Shown in pieces: positions 17,012 through 44,133 of a DNA stretch of 64,000 nt (the stretch's first letter is position 1; each line of letters begins with the position of its first letter). Origin of the DNA: Candidatus Merdivicinus intestinigallinarum (GTDB lineage Bacteria; Bacillota; Clostridia; Oscillospirales; Ruminococcaceae); assembly GCA_018713335.1 (NCBI GenBank), contig DVOW01000032.1:1-64000 (forward strand). Reading direction: 5' to 3'. The translations under genes were made by a program, and so were the position numbers. The notes beneath the pieces were generated by a model. The model did not search any database and had not been told where the DNA came from. It saw only the letters and a list, made by a program, of their open reading frames with translations.

Positions 17012-17097
17012 TGGTGGACGAGGGTGGATTCGGACCACCGAAGCTGAAAAGCAACAGATTTACAGTCTGCCCCCTTTGGCCACTCGGGAACTCGTCC
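17012..17097 (-). tRNA. tRNA-Tyr (GTA), CCA encoded
   Basis: Reverse complement GGACGAGTTCCCGAGTGGCCAAAGGGGGCAGACTGTAAATCTGTTGC..GGTTCGAATCC-like T arm..CTCGTCCACCA; long variable arm. Confidence 0.93.
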
Positions 17098-17118
17098 ATA
17101 TTCAATTAAGGAAGAAAG

Positions 17119-17194
17119 TGGAGCTGGTGGACGGACTCGAACCCCCGACCTGCTGATTACAAATCAGCTGCTCTACCAACTGAGCTACACCAGC
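17119..17194 (-). tRNA. tRNA-Thr (TGT), CCA encoded
   Basis: Reverse complement GCTGGTGTAGCTCAGTTGGTAGAGCAGCTGATTTGTAATCAGCAGGTCGGGGGTTCGAGTCCGTCCACCAGCTCCA. Confidence 0.95.
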
Positions 17195-17217
17195 AAATTT
17201 TTTGCCCTTGCCCCAAA

Positions 17218-17294
17218 TGGTCGGGGCGACAGGACTCGAACCTGCGGCATCTTGGTCCCAAACCAAGCACTCTACCAAACTGAGCTACGCCCCG
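17218..17294 (-). tRNA. tRNA-Pro (TGG), CCA encoded
   Basis: Reverse complement CGGGGCGTAGCTCAGTTTGGTAGAGTGCTTGGTTTGGGACCAAGATGCCGCAGGTTCGAGTCCTGTCGCCCCGACCA. Confidence 0.95.
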
Positions 17295-17364
17295 GCGTTG
17301 GTCCTTGCGACAGCTTAACCATTATATCACAACAAGATGATCTTGTCAAGCACTTTCTTTTAAA

Positions 17365-17399
17365 ATGCAAACCGTAAATTCAGCATTTACGGTTTGCAT
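17365..17399. terminator. Terminator-like hairpin downstream of tRNA-Arg
   Basis: ATGCAAACCGTAAA-ttcagca-TTTACGGTTTGCAT; on the minus strand followed by TTTTAAAAG. Confidence 0.65.
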
Positions 17400-17401
17400 C
17401 A

Positions 17402-17478
17402 TGGCGCGCCCGGAGGGATTCGAACCCGCGACCTTTTGATTCGTAGTCAAACACTCTATCCAACTGAGCTACGAGCGC
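17402..17478 (-). tRNA. tRNA-Arg (ACG), CCA encoded
   Basis: Reverse complement GCGCTCGTAGCTCAGTTGGATAGAGTGTTTGACTACGAATCAAAAGGTCGCGGGTTCGAATCCCTCCGGGCGCGCCA. Confidence 0.95.
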
Positions 17479-20474: not shown

Positions 20475-20740
20475 ATAAAAAACGCCCCAAACCAGTGTGA
20501 AACTGGTTCAGGACGGATGATTCTGACGATCCGCGGTACCACCTGAATTCGGATTGCTCCGCACTTTGCCGCACAGGGGGACTCCCGATGCGTTTCTCTG
20601 TGACGGGAGGACCCGGCGAGGCTTACTGGAAGTTTCAGCCCGCAGCTCCAAGGGGGGTTCCCAAATCCGTTCCCGAAGGCTTACACCGGCCGCCTTCTCT
20701 CTGCGCGTCCCGGAAATGGTACTGGTTCTTTTCATTGCTT
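20475..20740 (-). ncRNA. T-box leader of proS (riboswitch)
   Basis: Minus-strand T-box core AGGTGGTACCGCGG (20531-20544), then terminator CGTCCTGAACCAGTttcacACTGGTTTGGGGCGTTTTTT, then proS. Promoter TTGACA(17)TATATT at 20747-20775. Confidence 0.9.
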
Positions 20741-20888
20741 TGTTTCAATATAGCATACCGGGTCCATTTTGTCAATAACAAAGGCGCGTCAAAAAATTTT
20801 GACAGGGCTTTTGGGGCGTTGTCAAGGAGTTTTGCTGGACTTTCGGAAGGCGGTATGATATAATCCAGGCAGAAAGGGGAGTTGGGGT

Positions 20889-29863: not shown

Positions 29864-29899
29864 AAACCCGGGGCAGATAATGGTGTCTGTCCCGGGTTT
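29864..29899 (+). terminator. Terminator-like hairpin
   Basis: AAACCCGGGGCAGA-taatggtg-TCTGTCCCGGGTTT. Confidence 0.75.
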
Positions 29900-29975
29900 C
29901 GTCTGGCAATTTATATAAGGGTTTATGCTTTGCTAACGCAAATGCACCGCAGATAAAATTTTAGGAGATTCTAAA

Positions 29976-30162
29976 CCGCCATTTTGCAAGCAAAATGGCG
30001 GTGGCGGGTCATCGCCAGGCGCTCTGCGGAGCGCCTTTTTTCTTGATAGTTCGCGCCCGGGGCGCGAAAAGATTGGATTTCGCCCATTGCGATGGGCGAC
30101 CAAAGGCGTTGCCTTTGGAAACCACAAGCTTTTGAAAAAGCTTGACCAAAACTTTTTATTTT
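29976..30162. repeat. Intergenic hairpin array A
   Basis: Six or seven consecutive perfect stem-loops at 29976-30001, 30002-30017, 30018-30035 (+T6), 30050-30068, 30080-30099, 30100-30118, 30125-30144, ending ACCAAAACTTTTTATTTT. Confidence 0.8.
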
Positions 30163-30208
30163 CCCTCATCATGCGAATTTATTCTGAAAGGAACCGTTCA
30201 ACAACTCG

Positions 30209-30242
30209 AAACCCGGGGCAGACCTTCTATCTGCTCCGGGTT
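30209..30242 (-). terminator. Terminator-like hairpin for the aminotransferase gene
   Basis: AAACCCGGGGCAGA-ccttcta-TCTGCTCCGGGTT. Identical 14-nt left arm to the hairpin at 29864. Confidence 0.7.
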
Positions 30243-30261
30243 GTTTTCACTGTTCCAAAAT

Positions 30262-43465: not shown

Positions 43466-43722
43466 CAGGGACGCCCGGAAAGGGCGTCCCTGCGGTTTTG
43501 ATGAGATTTATTTTTCCGTTTTTCTGAAAGGTACCGACGTTAAATATTTGGGGAACCCCTTGATAGGGTTCCCCACGGTGGAACAGTCCACCGGACTGTT
43601 CCACCTCCCTTCCTGATTTTTTTATCATAAAGATTTCGCTCGTTGCGACGAGCGAGAAGGGACTCCGTCCCCTTCACCCCTGCCACCTTTTAAAAAAGGT
43701 GGACCAAAATTTTTATGATTTT
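43466..43722. repeat. Intergenic hairpin array B
   Basis: Stem-loops at 43466-43492 (11 bp), 43550-43574 (9 bp), 43577-43605 (13 bp), 43636-43655, 43656-43675, 43683-43702, ending ACCAAAATTTTTATGATTTT. Confidence 0.8.
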
Positions 43723-43812
43723 GACGCAATTTGCATCGTTTTTCTGCTTCAGCAGAAAATTTTGCTATGATAAAATACGGGGTGCAATTTTTTATGAAAA
43801 GGCAGGGATTCT

Positions 43813-44040
43813 GTGTATTACAGGCGAATTAAAGAATTACGGGAAGATCAGGACATCAAACAAAGAGAAATCAGCGAGGCTCTTTCCATTACGCAGAAAT
43901 GCTACGCGAATTATGAAAACGGCCACCGGGGGATCCCCACGGAGATTTTGTGCCAGCTGGCGGATTACCATCACACCTCCGTGGATTACCTGCTGGGGCG
44001 GACAGACAAAAAAGAACCGTACCCGCCTGCCAAACGCTGA
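43813..44040 (+). CDS. Small XRE-family HTH protein
   Basis: YRRIKELREDQDIKQREISEALSITQKCYANYENGHRGIPTEILCQLADYHHTSVDYLLGRTD. Confidence 0.85.
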   Translation: MYYRRIKELREDQDIKQREISEALSITQKCYANYENGHRGIPTEILCQLADYHHTSVDYLLGRTDKKEPYPPAKR

Positions 44041-44133
44041 AAACAGGGAGAAAATTGCAGGGGACGATGCCCAGATTTAACGCCCCCTGCAAAGTTTGTT
44101 TTCGTTTGATTTCCCAAAACGATAGGAAATAAA

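Follow-up and report, generated by a model that had tools for sequence, protein, structure and literature searches.

A three-hairpin module carried by two kinds of interspersed element in Oscillospirales, with hairpins probably exchanged as units

Two hairpin arrays share a 3′ module

The window analyzed here, 64,000 nucleotides of contig DVOW01000032.1 from Candidatus Merdivicinus intestinigallinarum, carries two arrays of hairpins on its forward strand, array A (29900–30208) and array B (hairpins at 43550–43715). They have in common a 3′ module of three hairpins, H5-H6-H7, and a tail, at 30076–30159 in A and at 43632–43718 in B, and the two modules are spaced 13,556 bp apart. The A module consists of H5 (30076–30099; GATT and an 8-bp stem with a TGCG loop), H6 with the tail AAACCA (30100–30124), and H7 (30125–30157; CAAGC-TTTT-GA-AAAA-GCTTG) with the mirror tail ACC-AAAA-CTTTTT. 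The B module consists of H5 (43632–43655), H6 with the tail ACCCCTG (43656–43682), and H7 (43683–43715; CCACC-TTTT-AA-AAAA-GGTGG) with the mirror tail ACC-AAAA-TTTTT. The two module strings given by the initial annotation are present letter for letter, and the two H5 positions are the only window matches to the descriptor GATTTCGC-N3-TTGCGA-N3-GCGA, for which chance would yield 0.04 matches when up to 3 mismatches are allowed. Both modules fold better than shuffled sequence on the forward strand (z-scores of -5.2 and -5.7), and none of 200 shuffles was as good.

A search of the window against Rfam at gathering cut-offs returned no family match over arrays A and B, and a permissive search (up to E 0.1) of four other copy-bearing loci returned no match. 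As far as Rfam and the literature searched show, the structured repeat that A and B share has not been catalogued. The Rfam gathering matches elsewhere in the window are four tRNA genes and a T-box leader, at 17015–17478 and 20506–20744 on the minus strand.

Upstream of its module, array A contains a conserved 5′ motif, TTTGCTAACGCAAATGCACCGCAGA (29929–29953), followed by hairpins H1 (CCGCCATTTTGCAAGCAAAATGGCGG; 29976–30001), H2 (TGGCGGGTCATCGCCA; 30002–30017), H3, which has a T-run and is terminator-like (30018–30041), and H4 (TTCGCGCCCGGGGCGCGAA; 30050–30068). The 5′ part of the array occurs in 32 copies in the genome, with none in the control, and copies extracted elsewhere have stems homologous to H1 with other letters. 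In long copies the order is fixed: 5′ motif, H1 to H7, 3′ end.

Array B has a different upstream part. A terminator hairpin flanks it (43466–43492), and the array itself begins with hairpin P1 (GGGGAACCCC..GGGTTCCCC; 43550–43574) and hairpin P2 (GTGGAACAGTCCACCGGACTGTTCCAC; 43578–43604), the latter conserved or covarying across genera, followed by a conserved, unpaired, pyrimidine-rich linker (CTCCCTTCCTGATTTTTT...; 43605–43631) that leads into H5. B-type elements with the common order P1-P2-linker-H5-H6-H7 are found in several genera; their RNAalifold consensus across genera has 36 pairs, 23 of them changed on both sides, and the linker CTCCCTTCCTG together with the GATT before H5 is conserved and unpaired. 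The terminal-repeat test for IS1182-type miniature elements found no TCAGnnTGTCGAAAAA-like end flanking array B. Thus, the proposal that B repeats the terminal module of A holds for the 3′ module, but the arrays otherwise belong to different elements, one an IS1182-type MITE end and the other a five-hairpin element.

Three further features lie near B-type arrays. A small gene for an XRE-type regulator adjoins array B (43795–44080; L306) and is absent from the orthologous position in sister species G064. A palindromic repeat of the TGTAGGGGCGGATGCNCATCCGCCCGC type is common beside B-type arrays in the genus (L038, L042, L047, L048, L306). B-type arrays in two genera have a further hairpin upstream of P1, around CAATTCACTGGATTG, and a GTACGGTCGG or TCTGTCGTA stretch (L208, L212, L215, L230, L019, L016, L126, L143), so the B-type element may exceed five hairpins.

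Array A resembles a decayed IS1182-type MITE

Array A is bracketed by two copies of a terminator hairpin, the left one at 29864–29899 (AAACCCGGGGCAGA...TCTGTCCCGGGTTT) and the right one at 30209–30243, forming a target duplication; the AAACCCGGGGCAGA block is common to both, and the loops have diverged. The left terminal repeat is lost and the right one is degenerate. The diverged loops and the lost left end indicate that array A is old, and because that end is missing, its assignment to the IS1182-type MITEs draws on the 5′ motif, the hairpin order, and the duplicated terminator. On these sequence grounds, we class array A as a decayed non-autonomous IS1182-type element (MITE) of ~310 bp with an unusual hairpin interior.

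Congeners and the sister species have young copies whose ends are intact. Two of these (L251 and L260) are exactly 360 bp long, with the ends TCAGCCTGTCGAAAAA...TTTTTCGACACTCTGA and matching terminal repeats. An autonomous IS of 1512 bp in congener G063 has the ends TCAGTCTGTCGAAAAA/TTATTCGACAGACTGA, as in the 360-bp MITEs, as well as a duplicated terminator, and its intact transposase of 473 aa (ORF 492–1913 of L297) matches the NCBIfam IS1182 family NF033551 with 396 bits against a cut-off of 270. A complete terminator hairpin, identical on both flanks, surrounds L251, L260, L297, and L357, and genome G008 has another IS with a duplicated hairpin. Among 58 copies, 15, including array A, have flank pairs more alike than 99% of mismatched pairs, and the blocks common to both flanks are mostly 21–35 bp and built around a stem. 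Terminator hairpins are a known target of the IS1182 family (PMC4923244), and duplication of the whole stem-loop has been drawn as an alternative outcome, ‘pathway b’ (PMC5678879). We infer that an IS1182 lineage of the G063 type moved array A.

No IS1182 transposase gene was found in the source genome, so its copies are either relics or were moved in trans. The transposase is also absent from the module-rich genomes G044, G097, and G215, and IS1182 therefore cannot be the sole route by which the module spreads. An internally deleted IS1182 copy in the sister species (L301; G064:C32:51087-51712) has unlike terminator hairpins on its left and right flanks, which suggests recombination between copies.

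The comparison of empty sites that the initial annotation had proposed was run in part. The array A site is empty in two congeners (G062 and G066), which have a lone terminator without the array; the flanking gene is conserved throughout the genus and synteny on its other side is broken, and these two genomes were the only ones with a readable 3′ side. At the B site the sister species has an inverted array and not an empty site: array B is inverted together with its neighboring terminator, and the P1 region is a different allele, a swap of the 5′ hairpin.

The module is dispersed and patchily distributed

In the 2.76-Mb source genome the H7-tail pattern matches 37 sites with at most one mismatch, and 68 sites with at most two, where the reversed control matches 11; other H7 types or chance account for many of the sites with two mismatches. 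With one descriptor, 39 distinct module copies were extracted from this genome; all of these genome copy counts derive from pattern searches. The possibility that only the two window copies exist, which would have spoken against an interspersed element, is thus set aside.

In the family, 5 of 61 sampled genomes matched the strict descriptor, as did 10 of 297 in the order, the latter spread patchily over at least four families, with zero matches in the controls of both searches. A looser pattern found over 113 stretches among 85,462 species genomes, nearly all of them in Clostridia. Only two matching stretches were found in viral contigs, and the phage and plasmid collections had no match to the module pattern, so a phage origin is unlikely. 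The distribution has the pattern of chromosomal elements that are mobile and inherited patchily. One cultured, deposited strain, Butyricicoccus pullicaecorum DSM 23266 (L154), has several modules, and wet-lab tests need not depend on uncultured MAGs.

Hairpins covary and are replaced as whole units

Across 29 distinct H5 sequences, 97.4% of cells pair, and 61 cells are changed on both sides, compared with 15.9 in shuffles; none of 500 shuffles reached as high a count, and sliding the partners by 1–3 columns gave at most 12 both-side-changed cells. Copies chosen by pairing were left out of this test, and in the rows from the family-sample descriptor, which fixes the outer stem, only the inner four pairs are unconstrained. 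The covariation that the initial annotation saw between A and B is therefore strong in a larger set, and with the many copies it bears out the suggestion of a structured interspersed element; the annotation's second ground for refutation, a lack of significant covariation among collected copies, is likewise set aside.

The description of these differences as compensatory stem changes stands only in part: pairing is kept, but comparison with orthologs in the sister species suggests that most changes are swaps of whole hairpins by existing alleles and not stepwise point compensation. At eight orthologous long insertions in G000 and G064, scored by eye from alignments, the two genomes have different alleles of H5 at seven, of H6 at five, of H7 at four, and of H4 at one or two, and they almost always agree in the transposon ends and H1-H2. 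The pair L349/L083 was left out of this set, as L083 contains two copies. Each replacement takes in from one to five neighboring hairpins, and the breakpoints fall between hairpins; in L323/L037 H4 and H5 alone differ within 1.6 kb that is otherwise 97% identical. Where H7 is replaced the tail is replaced with it, and alleles of the replacing type occur elsewhere in the genome. The stem differences between A and B thus appear to reflect largely whole-hairpin replacement, for which gene conversion between dispersed copies would be the simplest reading.

Smaller palindromes (GTCGTCAAG..CTTGACGAC, CCGTGAAC..GTTCACGG, and GTCGTGAAC..GTTCACGAC) are nested in the loops of H2, H3, H5, H6, or H7 in many copies (L014, L017, L033, L034, L040, L298). 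They are present or absent between orthologs and resemble a second layer of tiny mobile hairpins.

The tails keep register with their stems

The number of A residues in the H7 tail equals the number of T residues in the 5′ arm in 117 of 119 distinct modules with a readable tail (mean of 57.7 and maximum of 73 over 5000 permutations), and in 115 of the 119 the stretch that precedes the A-run in the tail falls exactly two short of the one that precedes the T-run in the arm. The match persists even though run lengths range from 2 to 7 and stem lengths from 4 to 7, both between families and inside a single genome, and both parts of the rule are obeyed by 22 of 23 modules in genomes that had not contributed to its discovery. 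The B tail, ACC, departs from the letter rule of most CCACC stems (ACG); its run length conforms. At H6 the relationship is weaker, with the two-shorter register in 33 of 49 distinct forms; the forms that keep it are parallel-complementary at 130 of 172 positions (permuted mean of 105.9 and maximum of 121). The permutation tests on the tails ignore the relatedness of copies.

Each tail is thus roughly a mirror of the 3′ arm. A third tract that is a mirror repeat of one arm, as a triplex calls for, is seen at H7 (by the counts of 115 and 117 in 119) and at H6. A plain triplex code was tried for the letters of the H7 tail and fails at several positions. Tentatively, and with more doubt than confidence, we suggest that H6 and H7 with their tails might form three-strand folds, either an intrastrand DNA triplex or a groove-docked, pseudoknot-like RNA fold, in which the tail registers with the 5′ arm from the third base of the arm through the loop, selected across Oscillospirales; units of hairpin and matching tail would then be exchanged within a modular structured element unlike catalogued repeats. 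Recognition by a protein is a possible basis for the register.

Discussion

We favor the view, with a probability of roughly 0.78, that the module belongs to a modular interspersed element of Oscillospirales, the module of A riding on an IS1182-type MITE and that of B on a five-hairpin element, with hairpins exchanged as units. For A, the transposase would recognize the terminal repeats TCAGnnTGTCGAAAAA and join the ends at both feet of an intrinsic-terminator hairpin, which would place a full copy of the hairpin on either side and leave each of the two neighboring genes with a terminator. For B, the module would be the 3′ part of a five-hairpin element, a carrier other than that of A. After insertion, hairpins would be exchanged as whole units among dispersed copies, most simply by gene conversion, giving rise to many perfectly paired alleles. 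The module itself is probably chiefly selfish DNA with an incidental terminator function.

Among other readings, we consider it unlikely that H5-H7 or the five-hairpin B element is primarily a non-coding RNA or 3′-UTR element retained by the host, for example as a protector of mRNA 3′ ends or a terminator, with mobility secondary. The strong conservation of structure, the covariation, and the conserved unpaired stretches across genera would fit such a role, as would the intergenic location of the copies and the terminator-like character of H3 and the flanking hairpins; however, occurrence in only 10 of 297 genomes in the order, copy numbers that run to dozens in a genome, frequent replacement and decay, and the lack of an Rfam match argue against it. 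Compensatory mutation of the ordinary, stepwise kind, driven by selection for pairing, would explain why every stem is still paired (97.4% of cells), but it is very improbable given that, in orthologs whose flanks are mostly 92–98% identical, whole stems differ at once next to identical hairpins. That the tail rule is a by-product of common descent and low-complexity runs, and not a structural constraint, gains some weight from the relatedness of copies within a genome, which the permutations do not preserve, but is quite improbable when varied run and stem lengths still match, in 117 of 119 modules and in 22 of 23 out of sample.

The module could also be a REP-like substrate of an HUH Y1/RAYT transposase, with H7 and its tail as the recognized hairpin and guide or cleavage site, as in IS200/IS605 and REP systems. 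The tail letters follow the stem in a parallel register that recalls the unusual linear complementarity of guide and cleavage sites (PMC8266576), and the CCACC form is, on the other strand, a CGTC-tagged hairpin, as in CGTC REPs (PMC3733652). Against this, Y1_Tnp (PF01797) is absent from G000, G030, and G044, which have the most copies in that sample, and is abundant in copy-free genomes, and the young long copies carry DDE-type ends and target duplications. Mobilization by IS200/IS605 or REP/RAYT was rejected on the absence of PF01797 from those three copy-rich genomes, and we give the REP-like reading scant credence, at the bottom of our ranking.

Returning to the favored reading of modular elements with exchanged hairpins, the copies would be naturally occurring cases in which an IS1182-type element has duplicated a complete terminator hairpin; this outcome had been proposed for the family and is the opposite of the deletion seen in staphylococci. 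A covariation-like signal among dispersed copies can stem from the swapping of whole hairpins, which calls for caution in the discovery of non-coding RNAs by covariation. The register between stem and tail is a simple and strongly supported rule, directly testable with synthetic oligonucleotides, and it and the unit-wise replacement of hairpins are the points that a specialist would not expect.

The closest known systems each differ in some respect. IS1272 and TnSha1 of staphylococci, also of the IS1182 family (NF033551), likewise target intrinsic-terminator hairpins without sequence preference, but they delete or replace the target hairpin with no target duplication (PMC4923244, PMC5678879), whereas here the entire hairpin is duplicated. 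Intrastrand triplex motifs of the TM_ECO type also have a hairpin and then a mirror-repeat third tract in one strand (PMC4666352); the tracts here are 4–9 nt and obey triplex codes only partly, and register is held through length changes and not by a fixed sequence. Like other bacterial MITEs, the A-type elements are short, non-coding, and dispersed, with target duplications and terminal inverted repeats in common with an autonomous IS, but their interior is seven exchangeable hairpins and not a deleted transposase gene, and part of it is also found in another carrier. GTAG- and CGTC-tagged REPs are stem-loops with a short tag beside the foot, and one form of H7 is CGTC-tagged on the other strand; however, the tag here varies with the stem, the copy-rich genomes tested have no Y1 transposase, and REPs are single hairpins or pairs. 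BOX/RUP and BIME-type modular repeats are, like the module described here, interspersed, intergenic mosaics of modules, but they have other sequences and occur in another phylum, and here the modules are single hairpins that swap at orthologous loci.
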